Shown here in pieces: positions 427 to 9,737 of a DNA stretch of 11,777 nucleotides (its first letter is position 1; each line of letters begins with the position of its first letter). The stretch is from Mollicutes bacterium PWAP (GTDB taxonomy: Bacteria > Bacillota_I > Bacilli_A > Mycoplasmatales > Metamycoplasmataceae): the NCBI GenBank assembly GCA_019661745.1, contig JAIFTM010000080.1, positions 1 to 11,777 on the forward strand. The letters are read 5' to 3'. The position numbers and the translations under genes were made by a program. The notes under the pieces were generated by a model. The model was not told where the DNA came from. It searched no databases and worked only from the letters and a program-made list of their open reading frames with translations.

Positions 427-600
427 TTAAGAATTTTGATTAATTAATTGTTTTTCGTTTTCAGATCTTTTTTTTGTTGTTGAAACTTTTGAATATTCTT
501 TTTTGTCTTTCATATTACCGCATGAAACCACTACAAGAATAGGGGCAGAAATAACTATTAAAACTCCTAATCTATTAATTTTTGTGTTTATTTTTTTCAT
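427..600 (-). CDS. 57-aa micro-lipoprotein, copy 2
   Basis: A paralogue of the gene at 156-329 with the same length and design: basic n-region, hydrophobic core, lipobox VVVSC with Cys27, and a 31-residue mature hydrophilic tail. The tail has more Lys/Arg than copy 1 (KE for TP at 34-35, KR for EG at 44-45). It begins 19 bp after the stop codon of the F1 beta-like gene on the same strand, so it is probably the next cistron of the ATPase operon. Its own ribosome-binding site is poor (only A-rich sequence before the ATG), unlike the strong one of copy 1, so translation may depend on the upstream gene. Both copies keep an open frame and a perfect lipobox, which argues that the lipoprotein signal is under selection. 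Function is unknown. Confidence 0.72.
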   Translation of the reverse strand: MKKINTKINRLGVLIVISAPILVVVSCGNMKDKKEYSKVSTTKKRSENEKQLINQNS

Positions 601-619
601 TATTATTTTTTAATATATT

Positions 620-2245
620 TTATTTCTTATTTTTAATGGATTGTATTTTTTTATAAAGTTTTTTGAAATCTTTGTGATCGCTTTTTTCTTTTATAAATTT
701 AGGTTTGTTAGATTGATCTAAAATAATTTCTTTTGTTTTTTCAAAATCAGAAAGATCATTTTTATATTCTTTTTTCAAAGAAATGAAAGTAGTTTCTGAC
801 ATATTACGATAACTACTATTTGAATTTTTTTCAACAATATCTTTATTAGAAAAAGTTTCTAAAGCATCTTCTACTGTTTTTATATAAAGGAAATATAAAG
901 GAGGAATATTGGAAAATTCTCCTAATAAAATTCTTTCTACATCTTTGATAGTGTTTTCAATATTAGAAACATAACCTTTTCTACCTGTAAATATTTCTGC
1001 AGATGAATAATTTTGAGTAAAATAATTTTCTAATTGTCTAGCAATTCTATAAAGTTTTCTTTCATTTTCAGAAAGTTGAGAAACACCAACAATTTCAACA
1101 ATTTCTTTAATTTGTTCATATTTAGCAAGTGTTGATAAGGTTTTATTTGCAATATCAAAGTGTTTTTTACCAACCAAATCTTCTTTTAAATTAATAGAAC
1201 TTGATTTAGTTAAATTAATAGCAGGATATCTTCCTTTAGAAGCAATAGACCTATCTAATAATAATTTAGACTCAAAGTGTGAAGACAATTCAAAAACAGC
1301 TTCATCAGTAAAATCATCAGAAGGTACATAAACAGTTTGTATAGAGCCGATAGACCCATCTGCATCCATATTAATACGTTTTTGAAAATTAGCAATATCT
1401 TTTTTCATTGAAGAAACATAACCACCAAAAGAAGGTTTATTACCAAGAGAAATTGATAATTCAGTTAAAGCTTGAACATATCTATATGCATTATCAATAA
1501 ATAATAATACATTTTTTCTATATTTTTTTCTAAAAATTTCAGCAGTTGTAAGACCAGAATAAATAATACTTGATCTTATTGCTGGAAGTTCAGACATTTG
1601 ACCAAAAAATCCTAATGTATTAGAAATAATTCCAGTTTTCTTTAGATCATCAATTAATTCGATTGCCTCTCTATTTCTTTCACCAATACCCATATAAATA
1701 TTTATAAAATTTTTGCTGATCCTTTTTGTGGAATGAAGTAATTCTTGAATAAGAACAGTTTTACCAACACCTCCACCTCCGAAAATACCAGTTTTAGAAC
1801 CTTCTACAATAGGGAATAATAAATCGATAACTTTTAAACCAGTTAATTGTATTTTTTTGTCATAATCGAAATTATTAAAAACTTCTTTTTGAAAAATAAC
1901 AGGCTCTGTTAATTCTTCTTCAACAACTTGATCATGAATGCCTTCAATTTGAGAAGTAATATTATTTAATCTAATATCATAAAAATTTCCAATACCTTGT
2001 AATGAACTGATTGTTTTAATAGAAGGATTTTTATCATCTAATGTATACATATCATTAATAAAAATAGATTTATGAGATTCTAAAATAAATATTGAAGCAA
2101 AAATACTATTACCTTCAATATATTCAATTTTTAATCAAGTATCACTTTTATTATCTTTTAGTATTAAATCAATTTTAGGTTTTGAATTTTTTGCCACTGA
2201 TAATTCAATTATGTTTTCTTTTATTTTAATAACCTTCGCCTTCAT
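620..2245 (-). CDS. F1-like ATPase beta-type catalytic subunit (type 3 / X0 cluster)
   Basis: 541 aa. Catalytic subunit of a rotary F1-type ATPase. Visible motifs: P-loop GGGGVGKT (about 156-163), the GERNRE motif with the catalytic glutamate (Glu189), Walker B VLLFIDN (246-252), and the blocks SIQTVYVPSDDFTDEA and IASKGRYPA, which match canonical beta subunits. The DELSEED lever is degenerate (SQLSENE). After the normal C-terminus there is a charged Lys/Glu/Asp-rich extension of about 70 residues, making it longer than the usual ~470 aa. The true start is the ATG at 2245 (ribosome-binding site AAAGGAGGG), which overlaps the end of the alpha-like gene by 20 nt; starting at the internal Met at 2050 would remove 65 residues of the N-terminal beta barrel. 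UGA at 2135-2137 encodes Trp. The catalytic residues suggest an active ATPase. It is not the housekeeping AtpD: the extension, the divergence and the surrounding genes mark an accessory F1-like cluster. Confidence 0.93.
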
Positions 2246-3827
2246 AAGCCCTCCTTTTTTCATCTTCAGATAAAGTATTTACAAAATCTGTTATTTCATC
2301 AGAAAATAATGGTAAAGAATATTTTCTTACATTATCTATTTTTGAAATTAATTCTATATCGTCTTTTTTTTCTTCTTTAACTGATAAAAGTCTTCTTTTA
2401 TTTAATCAATCAATGTAAGAATTTATTTTATTACCAATATATTCTAAAAATAATTGTCAATCTATTGTTCCATTTTGAATTTCTATAAATCCATTCTTAA
2501 CAATAGAATCTGTTTTTTTTAATCATCAAAGTAATTTTATACCTGTCTTTACACTCTCAAACAAAGTAAATCATTTATTTTCTATAATTTTTGTCAAAAT
2601 TGAAATTGAAGCAAAATTAAATCCTCCTCAACCACTTCTTCTAATAATTTTTTTAATAAATTCACCTTGATTTTTCAAAATATTTACATTTTTGTCAAAA
2701 ACTGAAAGAGTAGAGGCAAATTGTTCAATATCTACATATCTATAATAAATGTCTTTTAAAAAATTAGAAGTTTTTCTCATTTCTTTATTTTGAACTGCTC
2801 CTCCCAAACGAGAAACAGAAAGACCCAAATCAACAGCTGGAAATTCTTTTTTTTGTGCTAAATCATTATTTAAAACAATTTGACCATCTGTTATGGAAAT
2901 TAATCCAGAAACAACAACATCTCTTAAATCTTCTGATTTTGTTTCAACAATTGGAAGAGTAGTAATAGAACCAGCATTTTTATAATTTGTAGAACGTTCT
3001 AATAAAGAAGAATGTTTAAAAAATAAATCACCAGGATAACCACCTTTACCAATGGGTTTTCCTGTATTAAAGGCAATCTCTCTTATAGTTTTAGCATGTT
3101 TAGTTAAATCATCAATAACTAAAATAACATCTTTACCATCTTTAGCTAAATTTTCAGCATGTGCCATAGCAACATAAGGAGAAATATATTGAAGAATATT
3201 ACTTGAAGATTTAGCATGAATAATAATGGTTTGATTTAAATTACCGTGTTTTCCAACAAGGTGTTTAATTTCACTTATTTGATGGGCATTAGTTCCAATA
3301 GATAAAATAATTCCAAAAGTATTTTCACTTCTCTTTTGATTAAATAAAGCATTCAAAGCAAATCAAGTTTTACCTGTTCTTGGCATACCAATAATTGCCT
3401 CTTTTTGACCAAAACCTAATGGATTAAATAAATCTATTGAAGGTATTTTAGTCATAATTTGTTTATTGACTGTAGTTCTTTGAGAAATGTCAACTTTAGT
3501 TTCAAAAATATAAGATTTTATATCTTCATCAACAAATGAAGTTGATTTAAAAGAAGGTTCTTCTAAAAATTGTCCTAATGGGTTTATTATATTACCAAAA
3601 TGTGAAGAATGAGTTTGAACATATTTTTGAATTATATTTATTTTGAAACCATCACTTAAATTTTGTAAACTATCAGAATCATCAGTAATTAAAGTAATTT
3701 GATTACCTTCTACTTGAGTTATTAAACAATGAAATCCTTTAATTTCAATAATTTGATCAACAGATAGTTTTTGATCACTTTCAATAACAATAACAGATCT
3801 ATATATATTTAATAATTTGTTTTTCAT
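2226..3827 (-). CDS. F1-like ATPase alpha-type subunit (type 3 / X0 cluster)
   Basis: 533 aa, read through several UGA (Trp) codons, including one immediately after the P-loop (3363-3365). The regulatory, normally non-catalytic nucleotide-binding partner of the beta subunit in an alpha3beta3 ring. Motifs: P-loop GMPRTGKT (147-154, canonical GDRQTGKT), Walker B region VILVIDDLTKHA (234-245), YPGDLFFKHSSLLER (264-278), and SVSRLGGAVQ (337-346) carrying the arginine finger (Arg340), which completes the catalytic site of the neighbouring beta subunit. The C-terminal part after about residue 400 is divergent and Trp/Lys-rich. A good ribosome-binding site (AAAAGGAG) precedes the ATG. It lies 12 nt after the epsilon-like gene and overlaps the beta-like gene by 20 nt, so translation of alpha and beta is probably coupled. 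Retention of the Arg finger supports a functional catalytic interface. Confidence 0.93.
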
Positions 3828-3839
3828 ATTTTCTCCTTT

Positions 3840-4256
3840 TTATTTAATATTTTTTAATTCTTTAATTATTTTTTTTATTTCTAATTTTTGAAATTTCATA
3901 AATTCATCAAAATTTAATTCATAATAAGATCTTTTGCTTAAAAGTTTAAATTGTTTTTTATCAAAAAAATCATCTATAAAATTTTGTTCATTATCATCTA
4001 AAAGCATTCCATCTACAAAAGAACCATAAACAACTAAGTTTTTATCTTCAATTTTTGCAAAAAAATCTAAAATATAAAATTCTAATTTAATATTTTCTGA
4101 ATTAATAACTTCTAATTTTGCCGAATCAACTAAAAAGAAAGTATTTAAATCTTGTTTTTTATTTATTACTTTTTTAAAAGTAGAATTAATAATAGTTATT
4201 TTTTTAACTTTACTAAATTGGTTGTAATTGGAACTATTTTGTATTATCAAATTCAT
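3840..4256 (-). CDS. Probable epsilon-like central-stalk subunit of the F1-like ATPase
   Basis: 138 aa, close to the ~135 aa of F1 epsilon. The sequence is strongly diverged. Predicted content is an N-terminal beta-rich part (about 1-95, with the segment FFAKIEDKNLVVYGSFVDG recalling the epsilon beta-sandwich) followed by a Lys-rich helical tail (about 110-138), the expected two-domain plan. Assignment rests mainly on size, fold impression and position: between gamma-like and alpha-like genes, as in the gamma-epsilon-alpha-beta order reported for mycoplasma F1-like clusters. I chose the ATG at 4256 because the GGAGG at 4263-4267 is 6 nt upstream of it but touches the alternative ATG at 4262. 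The gene overlaps the gamma-like gene by 23 nt. Confidence 0.6.
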   Translation of the reverse strand: MNLIIQNSSNYNQFSKVKKITIINSTFKKVINKKQDLNTFFLVDSAKLEVINSENIKLEFYILDFFAKIEDKNLVVYGSFVDGMLLDDNEQNFIDDFFDKKQFKLLSKRSYYELNFDEFMKFQKLEIKKIIKELKNIK

Positions 4257-5160
4257 TGTCATCCTCCAATTTAGTTAATTTCTTTTTCTTAAATTTGTTT
4301 TCTTTAGAAAATAAATTGTTAAGTTCCATGAATTCTTCTGTTGTAATTAATTTATTAATTTCTAATTTTGTTTCTTCAATCTGTTTTTTTAATTTTGAAA
4401 CTTTAGAATTTTCTAAAAAAAGTAACTTTTTAACTCCTAATGAATTATGATAAACTTTTGTTAAAGAAACAAACATACTAATATAACTAATATCTAATTG
4501 ATTAGAAAATTCATGAACGTTTGGCTCAATATTAAAATTTATTTCTCTAATATCACTTTTTTCTGATCATTCACTTTGAAATTGATCTCTTAATTCTTTA
4601 TTTGATAAATATGGTAAAACTTGAATAGTGTTGTTTTTATTTTCAGAACCTTCCATTACGAAAAATAATTTAGAAAATTGTTTTTCGTAAAAAATATTAG
4701 AAATTAAATTAGTAGTTGAATAAGTATCTTCTAAAAAGTTAAAATTTTCAAATTGAAAATCTACAGATTCTTTAAGTTTATTAATAAATGCATTAAATTT
4801 AAAATTTTTAATATTTGATAAATTATTATCAAATAATAATATTTTGTCTTGGGGTTTTTTATCAGAAATAATTTTATTAATTTCTTCGATCATTTTTTTA
4901 TCAATTTCATCAATAGCACCAGTTAAATTGAAAATAACAAATAGGCTTCCTGATTTATCTTGAACGTTAGTTTTAGAATAAATTAAATTTCTACTTTTTG
5001 ATAAGTTGAAAATTAATTCTTTGAAATTTTTTGAAATAGTTTGAAATTTGTTTGTTTGAAATTCTAAAGAGGATCATTTACTTAAAAGTTCTCTTCTAAA
5101 TGTTGTTAAAAATTTTAAATATTGTCTAGCTTCATCAGAAGTTGAAAATTCTTTTTCCAT
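4234..5160 (-). CDS. Gamma-like central-shaft subunit of the F1-like ATPase
   Basis: 308 aa (canonical gamma about 285), read through UGA-Trp codons at 4567-4569 and 5074-5076. Expected to be the rotating shaft inside the alpha3beta3 ring. The layout matches gamma: an N-terminal helix (about 8-55), a central alpha/beta domain (about 70-200, with SLFVIFNLTGAIDEID at the place of the 'SDRGLCGG' strand-loop), and a C-terminal helix of about 60 residues with Ser/Asn spacing and an INKLITTEE end resembling the 'RQAxITxEL' end of gamma. A further Lys-rich tail of about 25 residues is extra. Pairwise similarity looks weak, so context carries weight. The ribosome-binding site is AAAAGGAT before the ATG at 5160. 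The gene lies 14 nt after the 166-aa gene and overlaps the epsilon-like gene by 23 nt. Confidence 0.72.
4263..4267 (-). promoter_or_regulatory. GGAGG ribosome-binding site that fixes the epsilon-like start
   Basis: GGAGG lies within the end of the gamma-like gene. It is 6 nt before the ATG at 4256 and directly adjacent to the ATG at 4262; only the former spacing is workable. This favours a 138-residue over a 140-residue product. Confidence 0.6.
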
Positions 5161-5174
5161 ATTAGTTTATCCTT

Positions 5175-5675
5175 TTAAAAGAATTCTTTTTGTAAATCAA
5201 TAATTTCATAAGGGTTTTGAACAAATTCCATAATTTCTCTTTCTTTATTTCAAACAACAATTAATGATTCAAAGAACTTTACCGCTTTATTTTTTTTGAT
5301 AGTTCTTGTTAAAGTTCCTTTAAAGAAATTTCAAATTTGTGTTCTTTCAGGGGTATTAATAAAGCCTTCAAGCGAAACATTTGAATTACCAACTCTACCC
5401 ACGGGAGCAATAAGTCTAATGCCTTGATACATAAATTCACCAGTTTTTAGAAAAATAGTAATCATTTCATTGATTAAAAATAAAATATTTTTTCAAGCAT
5501 AATCTTTATCAGTAATTTGACTTTTATTTTTTAAAATAGTAGGAATTATTAATTCATTTATTTCTATCAAATCAATTTCTTGATTTTCGATTTTTTTGAT
5601 TAAACTATCAAATATACTCTTTCTTGATTTTAATTCTTCAGATGAAAAATTTTGTTTTAAATTTGATTTAGGCAT
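5175..5675 (-). CDS. Unknown 166-aa soluble protein of the F1-like X0 operon
   Basis: 166 aa with UGA-Trp at 5493-5495, 5331-5333 and 5250-5252. No signal peptide and no TM segment. The N-terminal half (about 10-60) is charged and probably helical (Lys/Glu/Ile-rich); the middle has hydrophobic stretches (about 62-80) and a Gly/Pro-containing block APVGRVGNSNV, followed by a Trp/Phe-containing C-terminal half. I do not recognise a family. It lies between the membrane protein, whose last codons it overlaps by 8 nt, and the gamma-like gene, 14 nt away. By position it could be a peripheral linker or stator between the membrane part and the F1-like ring; this is inference only. The start has an AAAGGGG ribosome-binding site. 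Confidence 0.75.
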
Positions 5676-7047
5676 TTTTTATACCCCTTTCTTTAGGTTT
5701 ATTGATTTTCTTTTTTTTATTAGAAGATGATTTATCCTTTATAGATAAAATATAGTTTAAGTTAATTTCAACCAAAATTATTGAAAGACCAAACAATAGA
5801 ATCATAAACATAATTGTATCGTTAGAAATTTTTAATAAATCATTAGAAATAAAATCTGTATGATTAAAATATAAAATTTCAAATCAAGATATTATCATAT
5901 ATACCAATATATAAGCAATATATCTAGAATAAAGATAAATAGTTACTTTGTCTTTTAAAGAAAATAAGTTTATTATTAATATTAAAGAAATTGAAATAAT
6001 ACCAACAACATTAATAAGCTTCATACCACGAGAGTGACCAGGTTGATTATCTAAAGCATAAACATCAACATATGAAAGTGCAGAAGTAATTATAACTATG
6101 GCAAATATAATATATAAGAAAATAAATAAATTAAGCATAGAACCGTTTGATTGAATTTTTTTATATTTAACAATAAAAACAATTAAATATGCGGAAGTAA
6201 ATAAACCAATAAATCCAGCAGCCAATTTTGAAAATAAATTAATACTACTAAACATTTCTTCTATAGGTCCTAGAATTCCAGCAAAAGCAAATGATGATAA
6301 TAAAACACCAAATGAAGAAATAAATAGAGCAACTGACTTTAAAATATTGTTAGAATTTTTAAAAGGTTTTCTAATTTCAGCAAAAATACCCAATACTATT
6401 GAAGAAATTATTGTAGCTAATGATAAAAATAATAAAATATTTGAATCGACAGAAAAATTAAATAAACAAATAAGCAAAACAGTTAAAAATCCAAAAGAAA
6501 TTTCTAAGATAGAAACAATTAATCATTTTTGAATTGTTTTTTTATTAATATTTTCTTTTTCATAAGAAATTGAAGAAGCTTTTTTTCTTATGACAAAACT
6601 AAATAATATATGTATAAATAAAACCAATAAGTTAATAATTACTGCAATCAACATTAATAATTCTCGATCCATTTCTAAAACAGAAACAAAAGAAATTACA
6701 CATAATATAATTCAAGAAATTTTTAATATCAAATAAAAAGATATTAAATAAATTTTAAATTTTTGTTTAATTGTTTCGCTATAAAGAATAATAAAAACTT
6801 TATAAATTCCATAAAAAACAATAAATGAATAAACAAAATAAATCAAATCAAATTTTTGTGAATTATTTAAAACATCATATTCATAATTGTAATCACTTCT
6901 TAAAAAGCTAGCGGCGAAAATAGATGCTAAAATTAAAAAAACAATTGTTAAAATTTTAAAAACTTTTCCATTTGATTTTTCTTGAATATTTGAACTAATG
7001 TTTTTTTTTCTAGCCGTTCCATTTAATTTAGTAAAATTTAATTCCAT
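5668..7047 (-). CDS. Polytopic (~12 TM) membrane protein of the F1-like X0 ATPase operon
   Basis: 459 aa, continuous only when UGA is read as Trp (6712-6714, 6523-6525 and 5884-5886). Hydrophobic segments at roughly 29-49, 66-88, 98-123, 130-153, 174-198, 203-223, 235-259, 274-294, 302-322, 345-365, 370-392 and 411-434 suggest about 12 membrane spans. The N-terminus (1-28) and C-terminus (435-459) are Lys/Asn-rich and probably cytoplasmic. A soluble loop with VDVYALDNQPGHSRG (about 327-341) separates two spans. It shows no similarity that I can see to Fo subunits a, b or c. As first gene of the operon with a strong ribosome-binding site (AAAAAGGAGAG), and followed by gamma-, epsilon-, alpha- and beta-like genes, it is the natural membrane partner ('X0') of the F1-like motor. 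It could transmit torque or conformational change, or move a substrate; neither is shown by sequence. Confidence 0.8.
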
Positions 7048-8271: not shown

Positions 8272-9201
8272 TTAATTTTTTTCAGGAAATTGAAGATCAC
8301 AAGCAATAGCAATCATGCTAGCATTGTCTGTTGTATATTTTAAATCAGGAATTTTATAGTTTTTGTGAAGTTTCAAAAATTCTTTTCTTAAATAAGAATT
8401 TGCACTAACTCCACCTCCTAAAATTATTGATTTAGGCTTATATTCGATAATGGCTCTTTTAGTTTTTTGTATAAGAATTTTAACAACTGATTTTTGATAA
8501 GAAGCTGCGATTTTTTGAATATTAATATTTTCATTATTTTGTTGTAATTTATGATGATAATTAATAATTTTTGTTTTTATCCCTGAAAAACTAAAATTAT
8601 AAGTTTTATCATCCAATAGATCAAAATTTATAAATTCACCTTTATAATTTTGAAATAATTTATCAATTGCAGGACCGCCAGGAAAACCAATATTTAATTT
8701 TCTTGCAATTTTGTCATAAACTTCTCCAACAGCATCATCTTTTGTTTGACCAATAATTTTTAATTCATTATAGTTTTTGAGATATCAGATTTGTGTATGT
8801 CCTCCGCTAACAATTAAAGCTATCGATGGAAACTCTAATTCATTATTAAATCCTGCAGCTAAAATATGACCATGCATATGATTTATTTTATAAACAGGTT
8901 TATCTAAAATTTTACCCAAAGTATTAGCCATAATTTGACCCATATGAAGAGAGCCAATAAGACCCGGCTTATATGTATAAGCAATCCTATCAAAAGAATC
9001 TAATTCATATTCTTTTTTAAGATTTTCTAATAAGATAGATAAATTATTTAAATGAAGTCTAGATGCAATTTCTGGAACAGTACCACCTCACTTTTTGTGA
9101 GTTTCAGTTTGTGTCATTGAAAATTCTTTCAATATTTTTCCATTTTCATAAGCCGAAATAGAAGAATCATCATGACTACTTTCGAAAGCAAGTATTCTCA
9201 T
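8272..9201 (-). CDS. tsaD: tRNA N6-adenosine threonylcarbamoyltransferase TsaD
   Basis: 309 aa (family about 310-345). Transfers the threonylcarbamoyl group to A37 of ANN-decoding tRNAs (t6A), acting with TsaB and TsaE. Motifs: N-terminal FESSHDDSS (6-14, canonical 'ETSCDET'), metal-binding HMHGH (His108 and His112), SGGHTQ (132-137), DDAVGEVYDKIARKL with PGGP (155-177), FSFSGIKT, LGGGVSANSYLR and TDNASMIA near the C-terminus. It uses UGA for Trp (for example after THKK near residue 38). The start codon overlaps the tsaB stop codon by one base (TAATG), so the two are translationally coupled; an AGGAAAT sequence before it can act as ribosome-binding site. The Cys of the N-terminal motif is His here, which is unlikely to matter for activity. 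Confidence 0.96.
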
Positions 9202-9737
9202 TAATTATTTCCTATTCTGGGGTTTTTAATATAATTGGGCTCAATTTCATTAAAAAATTCTATTTCTTCAAATAAAGATAGAAAAAATTTAGGATTTTTT
9301 TCAATTAATAAATAATCATAATTACTTTCTATATTTTGACTCCCTAAAACTTCTATAGAATTGCCGTTTTTTATTTGTGTTATATAAGAAGTATTTCCGC
9401 TAGCATTTATATAAAAATCTCCATCTTCAAAACCATTTGAAGGAAATATAAAACTGCTTGCCACAAAAACTTTTTTATTTGTGCTTATTTTAAATGTTTT
9501 AGCAAACATTAAAGAGGCTCTAATTCCCATAAAAGAACCCGGACCATTTGTAACATATAATTCATCAATATTGCGAAGAGATAAATTATTTTTATTTAGA
9601 AAAAAAGACAATTCATTAACTAAACTATCGCTTTTAAATTTTAAATGTTTAAAAGTTTTTGATTCAACTATTTTTCAATCATTTAATAATAAAAAATACA
9701 TATGTTTGTTTGTGGTATCAATTAAAATTTTATTCAT
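9201..9737 (-). CDS. tsaB: tRNA t6A biosynthesis protein TsaB
   Basis: 178 aa, with UGA-Trp at 9675-9677. A catalytically inactive TsaD paralogue that dimerises with TsaD in t6A formation. Motifs: N-terminal ILIDTTNKHMY (4-14, canonical 'LAIDTS') and the hallmark VTNGPGSFMGIRASLMFAK, close to canonical 'GPGSFTGLRIG'. The second half is short compared with the 220-230 residues of E. coli and Bacillus proteins, a reduction typical of mycoplasmas. The chosen start is the ATG at 9737; no Shine-Dalgarno sequence precedes it, and a minus-strand TATAAT at 9746-9751 places the likely transcription start at or next to the ATG, so the mRNA may be leaderless. The gene is followed by tsaD with a TAATG overlap. 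Confidence 0.9.

Follow-up and report, generated by a model that had tools for sequence, protein, structure and literature searches.

A six-gene F1-like ATPase operon of Mollicutes bacterium PWAP with no protein 5 gene between epsilon and alpha, placed nearer the Type 3 than the Type 2 ATPases of mycoplasmas

We analysed a cluster of F1-like rotary ATPase genes in Mollicutes bacterium PWAP (assembly GCA_019661745.1, contig JAIFTM010000080.1). The 11,777-nt stretch, referred to as the window, is the whole of contig C77 of genome G000, a metagenome-assembled genome of 549 kb that is 81% complete and, of the 135 family genomes searched, the sole representative of its genus. Open reading frames (ORFs) were read under translation table 4. 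A first-pass annotation of this DNA had described six closely packed minus-strand genes at 620-7047, and all six ORFs were present. Neighbouring pairs overlap by 8 to 38 nt or stand 12 to 14 nt apart, and the 12-nt spacer between the epsilon-like gene and alpha holds no gene. From upstream to downstream, the genes are:

5668..7047, minus strand: protein 1-like (P1), 459 aa, 12 predicted transmembrane (TM) helices, putative X0 membrane sector
5175..5675, minus strand: protein 2-like (P2), 166 aa, no TM segment, in the position of GliD in M. mobile
4234..5160, minus strand: gamma-like central shaft, 308 aa
3840..4262, minus strand: epsilon-like, 140 aa, labelled by position only
2226..3827, minus strand: alpha-like, 533 aa, with intact P-loop and Arg finger and a short N-terminus before the P-loop as in Types 2 and 3
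620..2263, minus strand: beta-like catalytic subunit of 547 aa, its C-terminus a Lys-rich tail of about 75 aa

A hydropathy count gave 12 TM segments for P1, in agreement with the roughly 12-TM protein first reported. The ORF list and searches of Pfam and NCBIfam revealed no recognisable gene for Fo a, b or c, or for delta, in the window, which upholds the earlier proposal of a membrane partner other than Fo. The annotation had also counted six of seven expected genes, with one component absent; this was right as far as the contig goes, and the absent component is protein 5 (P5). Promoter and terminator scans were uninformative.

We located the nucleotide-binding motifs of both large subunits. 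Beta carries the P-loop GGGGVGKT (162), GER with the catalytic Glu (195) and the Walker B motif LLFIDN (253), while alpha carries GMPRTGKT (147), VIDD (237) and the Arg finger within VSR (338-340), so that the motifs called intact at first pass were all found. Both P-loops retain the GKT core. Invariant columns were defined from 38 alpha/beta sequences besides those of the window, drawn from the canonical, Type 2 and Type 3 groups. Beta retained 49 of its 54 such columns and alpha 35 of its 40 (84/94 together); one of the five lost beta columns sits in the P-loop (Ala to Gly). Decay of alpha and beta is unlikely, because the catalytic Glu, Walker B, the Arg finger and most invariant columns are intact.

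Both subunits are strongly diverged. Pfam ATP-synt_ab scores were 194 and 202 bits for the alpha/beta pair, and the NCBIfam Type 3 models MSC_0618 and MSC_0619 gave 372 and 342 bits, below their cut-offs of 570 and 520. Identity to the other 38 alignment rows reached at most 34% for alpha (median 30%) and 37% for beta (median 33%). A protein search with alpha returned 7798 matches; among the 120 listed, the best non-self match aligned over 76% of the length at 38% identity, with up to 44% in a few shorter local alignments. Beta scored 322 bits with the gliding model NF045858 (cut-off 850) and, with its P-loop at 162, lacks the N-terminal extension of 200-300 residues expected of a Type 2 beta. 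The alpha P-loop (147) sits close to where Type 3 alphas usually have it; in the three canonical alphas compared it comes about 20 residues later. Because alpha is short before the P-loop, consistent with loss of the helix docking the delta/b stalk, ATP synthesis is unlikely; PMC11864180 and PMC12994834 describe loss of the alpha helix that docks the stalk for these ATPases.

To place the locus, we built trees from alpha and beta. In a 39-row tree, 25 rows including the window formed a clade on the Type 3 side (100/100), facing a Type 2 clade of 8 rows (100/100). A second 39-row tree, which added seven loci from early-branching genomes, grouped the window with 22 Type 3 rows (99/99) and showed L142 and L139 plus L141 branching outside this group on the Type 3 side (97/95). 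A P5-type gene stands directly upstream of alpha in 18 of these 22 rows; in the remaining four, P5 is downstream (L070), the cluster is split (L062) or an edge cuts the locus (L144 and L145). The window itself was placed outside the Type 3 crown. Approximately unbiased (AU) tests rejected a grouping of the window with Type 2 in both tree sets (p 0.012 and 0.006), and also a position outside both Type 2 and Type 3 (p 0.013). A single clade of the four P5-less clusters was neither shown nor rejected (p 0.098). These results place the window nearer Type 3 than Type 2, with the caution that its long branch calls for. The first-pass assignment to Type 3 thus survived in this looser form; gene order, on which it had been based, did not hold as a criterion, since Type 2 and Type 3 have the same order (PMC3369863; PMC12994834), and the NCBIfam scores stayed below cut-off. 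A pairing of the window with C43, a second F1-like locus of G000, appeared weakly in an initial tree that preceded these two (87/31) and was not rejected in a later test (p 0.43). With more rows, C43 joined a cluster of genome G198 (100/100), and we therefore took the early window-C43 join as a long-branch effect.

We then assessed the labels of the four other proteins. No Pfam or NCBIfam model reached its cut-off for P1, P2, the gamma-like or the epsilon-like protein, and subunit profiles were built from 36 full clusters and run with hmmsearch against 511 proteins, later 558 with more rows. The gamma-like protein matched at E 3.8e-5 among the 511 proteins, then at 1.9e-5 and 1.7e-8 among the 558; hhalign gave 86-92%, yet 0.2% with a profile of two P5-less rows only. 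As a single query it matched weakly (E 1.8e-5 to 0.012) in 4 of the remaining 134 genomes of the family, and its low-confidence single-sequence model (pLDDT, the per-residue model confidence, 36) showed long N- and C-terminal helices. The sequence comparisons thus support the gamma label of the 308-aa protein. The epsilon label was given for position, together with length and a strand-rich predicted pattern; the model, of about nine strands followed by short helices, was too poor to judge (pLDDT 46). Of the two labels proposed at first pass, therefore, gamma was borne out by the profiles and epsilon gained no sequence support. PDB searches with both models returned nothing at E <= 0.001; E. 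coli epsilon, 1bsh, ranked 7th at E 1.3, which is not significant.

For P2, hmmsearch gave E 0.063 with the Type 3 crown profile, 0.0017 with L007 and L070 included and 0.004 in the later set; its rank placed the protein among true P2s, and hhalign gave only about 2%. Successive hhalign runs of P1 against P1 profiles gave 12.5%, 60-70% and 48% over 378 columns. The 48% run exceeded 26 multi-TM proteins other than P1 (best 6%) and 30 block shuffles (best 17%), in a test that is noisy, the P1s of L111, L113, L114, L141 and L142 scoring under that of the window. A two-row P5-less profile gave no signal for P1 with hhalign, and in a protein search with P1, in which 7997 candidates out of 5.8 billion proteins were scored, nothing but P1 itself came up at E 0.001. 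Taken by sequence, these comparisons weakly favour the labels P1 and P2, with moderate support for the window P1 as a Type 3-like protein 1, first in its cluster.

G000 holds three alpha/beta pairs (six PF00006 matches), on C34, C43 and C77. The separate canonical operon that the first-pass annotation suggested looking for is present on C34 as a complete F1Fo set with Fo genes (a-c-b-delta-alpha-gamma-beta-epsilon). C43 carries a seven-gene F1-like cluster including an 809-aa protein 5, labelled by its place and two C-terminal TM segments; the crown P5 profile did not list it. A search of G000 for P5 returned one gene, that of C43, itself a row of the query alignment, with a query that misses divergent P5s. 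Five alpha/beta pairs were seen in G198 (about 900 kb, 98% complete; L109, L110, L140, L108 and L139): one canonical, two Type 3-side pairs accompanied by a P5-type gene (of only 312 aa in one case), one Type 2-like and one P5-less. Small mycoplasma genomes can thus retain several distinct F1-like motors, with two such pairs in G000 and four in G198.

To compare the position of protein 5, we surveyed 66 hand-picked loci with a non-canonical alpha, the window included, taking as P5-type any gene of over 250 aa with a C-terminal TM segment. Such a gene stands directly upstream of alpha in 51 of the 66, the window not among them. The epsilon-position gene takes this place in eight loci (the window, L139, L141, L142, L070 and the Type 2 loci L115-L117 of genus g6) and P2 in four split clusters (L059, L062, L071 and L078); two loci are cut by an edge. 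Three clusters besides the window that run from epsilon directly to alpha lie deep on the Type 3 side: L139 (genome G198), L141 (G225) and L142 (G227). In L141, the 4.7 kb that follow beta up to the contig end hold no P5-shaped gene. Fusion of P5 to another subunit was considered and rejected: the C-terminal tail of beta has no TM segment, and P1 is no longer than other P1s. According to PMC3369863, published clusters contain gene 5, reported as broken in M. gallisepticum R-low and one M. pulmonis strain. The open-licence papers searched gave, in their available text, no description of clusters without protein 5.

Several of these loci showed further features. L142 has a 2341-aa ORF directly upstream of P1 (8953-15978), near the edge of the fetched stretch, and L141 a 1211-aa ORF upstream of P1 (11917-15552) with a 367-aa ORF between; both large ORFs have a TM segment at the C-terminus, lack Pfam matches at E 0.01 and are possible surface partners. 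The g6 Type 2 clusters L115, L116 and L117 have a long beta; their epsilon and alpha genes have no P5 between them, and no 12-TM P1 was seen adjoining the other genes. In G123 (C1:830555-850215; L079 2219-10216), seven P5 relatives and a fragment follow P1-P2-gamma-epsilon-alpha-beta in the same direction, as if alternative partners of one motor. The alpha-like gene of L070 has an in-frame TAG near its 5' end (region near 5056-5220).

MIB and MIP form the antibody-cleavage system to which the first-pass annotation had linked this cluster type. Their profiles (TIGR04526 and PF01732) matched nothing at E 1 in G000, which is 81% complete, though they matched most family genomes (MIB 107/135, MIP 112/135, G000 counted), and the link was not borne out here. 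G198, G225 and G227, which hold the other P5-less clusters, had no MIB or MIP profile match either. Among the 28 MIB-negative genomes (20 listed, the other eight deduced from the genus tally as the rest of genus g6), PF00006 matched twice in nine and three or more times in 19. The six MIB-negative genomes from g2 and g3 (G048, G218, G221, G240, G244 and G254) had two matches each, that is one alpha/beta pair with canonical-size scores; G254 does have a PF01732 match. These one-pair genomes without MIB fit the link between Type 3 and MIB published in PMC12994834. G276, another of the nine, had both of its matches on a contig that carries a Type 2-like beta. Genus g44 also had two matches. Three or more occurred in g1, g43, g46 (2/3 genomes), g47, g48 and g6 (11/12), and PF01732 matched 4 of the 12 g6 genomes. 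In several lineages, then, F1-like pairs are retained with no recognised MIB. The M. mobile Type 3 locus is likewise kept without recognised MIB, and Type 3 is required for MIB-MIP function in M. mycoides subsp. capri, as stated in PMC12994834.

Upstream of the six-gene operon lie pfkA, tsaD and tsaB, and also a divergent ABC-F ATPase gene. TsaB (9201-9737) is short (178 aa) and scored 61.8 bits, slightly below the NCBIfam cut-off of 69.3. Downstream of beta there are two further genes:

427..600, minus strand: small predicted lipoprotein of 57 aa whose signal ends in VVSC, beginning 19 nt past the beta stop codon
156..329, minus strand: second 57-aa lipoprotein, a tandem duplicate of the first, 86% identical

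These tandem lipoproteins are the best local candidate for a surface partner of the motor. Elsewhere in G000, 14 places match them, in the signal-peptide part only. As a recurrent partner they were rejected: among 66 loci with beta (canonical included), comparable small ORFs near beta, with an N-terminal hydrophobic stretch and a Cys, occurred in three, namely the window and two whose ORFs do not look like lipoproteins.

On balance, and by a narrow one, we favour the reading that the window encodes a six-gene, P5-less motor related to the F1-like X0 ATPases, lying on the Type 3 side of the trees and probably driving a surface process other than antibody cleavage. In such a motor, the alpha3-beta3 ring would turn the gamma shaft at the expense of ATP, gamma and the epsilon-like protein would push on the 12-TM P1, and P1 would relay the movement across the membrane to a surface protein. 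P2 might brace the ring through alpha, by analogy with GliD, which contacts the alpha C-terminal domain in the M. mobile structure (PMC11864180). The P5 of C43 could be shared with the window motor.

Several observations weigh against this reading, and the window may instead hold an ordinary, merely very diverged Type 3 X0 ATPase whose P5 lies beyond the contig end or elsewhere, or is supplied by C43 to both motors; we regard this as possible, if doubtful. The contig stops soon after beta, 155 nt beyond the second lipoprotein, and in a genome 81% complete protein 5 may lie past that end. P5 has been relocated in two other cases, so this explanation gains weight: in L051, a 382-aa ORF without a C-terminal TM segment precedes alpha and P5 lies past beta on the other strand, and in G123 (L070/L079) P5 is downstream of beta, in the form of the seven relatives and the fragment. 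Four further clusters are split. The P5 alignment missed G228 and G266, both with P5-shaped genes, so a divergent P5, MIB or MIP could escape notice, and the one P5 gene found in G000, at C43, was itself a query row. Past beta in L141 there is, on the other strand, a 296-aa lipoprotein-like ORF with a weak P5 profile match (16 bits). Furthermore, the epsilon-like protein had no match by profile (hmmsearch; hhalign 0.7-6.7%), and the very long branch of the window (4.7, 3.1 and 2.2 in three trees) leaves its exact place uncertain. Against a displaced P5 stand the 51 of 66 loci that keep it directly upstream of alpha, where the window has none, the three other clusters that also lack it there, and the P5-free 4.7 kb past beta in L141.

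The remaining explanations are less probable still. P1 might be a transporter or protein-translocating channel powered by the F1-like ATPase, with no relay to a surface protein; its 12 TM helices are permease-like, and a translocation role for such ATPases is discussed by Beven et al. (PMC3369863). We consider this unlikely: P1 falls within no transporter family of Pfam or NCBIfam, the operon includes a gamma shaft, and under cross-linking MIB and MIP were purified together with the Type 3 ATPase (PMC12994834). That the cluster is a decaying paralogue leaving the genome, as its very long branch and the second F1-like cluster at C43 might suggest, seems highly improbable with six open, tightly packed frames and so many of the invariant columns of alpha and beta preserved. 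A Type 2-like (G1) gliding motor would have the identical gene order, and the three g6 Type 2 clusters likewise have no P5 between epsilon and alpha; we give this hardly any credence, given the unextended beta, its score far under the cut-off of the gliding model and the AU rejection of a Type 2 grouping.

If the preferred reading of a P5-less motor holds, it bears on the role of the X0 sector and on protein 5 as a stalk, both left open in the available text of PMC3369863 and PMC12994834; PMC3369863 raised the possibility that protein 5 is a peripheral stalk. P5-less operons in lineages without MIB-MIP matches would define the core parts (P1, P2, gamma, epsilon, alpha and beta) and argue for uses beyond antibody cleavage and gliding. 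Should motors of this kind function in its absence, then protein 5 is not an obligatory stalk, which would argue against a peripheral-stalk role as a general rule. Tentatively, and with the odds against it, six-gene P5-less motors could be a class of their own, the fourth among mycoplasma rotary ATPases, retained in early-branching lineages free of MIB and MIP. In this class the 12-TM protein would by itself link the rotor to surface proteins that can change, and the older membrane motor would only later have been put to use in antibody cleavage and gliding.

We compared the window with known systems. With the canonical mycoplasma F1Fo (Type 1) it has the alpha, beta and gamma core in common, and differs in having P1 and P2 instead of a, c, b and delta genes, the canonical operon of this genome being the one on C34. 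The Type 2 G1-ATPase of M. mobile (MMOB1610-1670) resembles it in gene order and kinds of subunits; the window differs in its beta without an N-terminal extension, in its rejection from the Type 2 group by AU test and in having no P5 between epsilon and alpha. Type 3 (MSC_0618-0624 / MMCAP2_0575-0581) shares with it the order P1-P2-gamma-epsilon-(P5)-alpha-beta, a 12-TM P1, the absence of peripheral stalk genes, an alpha short before the P-loop and the same side of the tree, whereas the window has no P5 between epsilon and alpha, scores under the NCBIfam cut-offs and comes from a genome with no MIB or MIP match. Compared with L141, L142 and L139, the last a gamma fragment-epsilon-alpha-beta cluster at a contig edge, the window shows about 33 to 42% identity in local alpha and beta alignments, and has pfkA upstream of P1 where L141 and L142 have large surface-type ORFs. 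With these three loci it shares epsilon followed directly by alpha, a genome without MIB or MIP match and a deep position on the Type 3 side.

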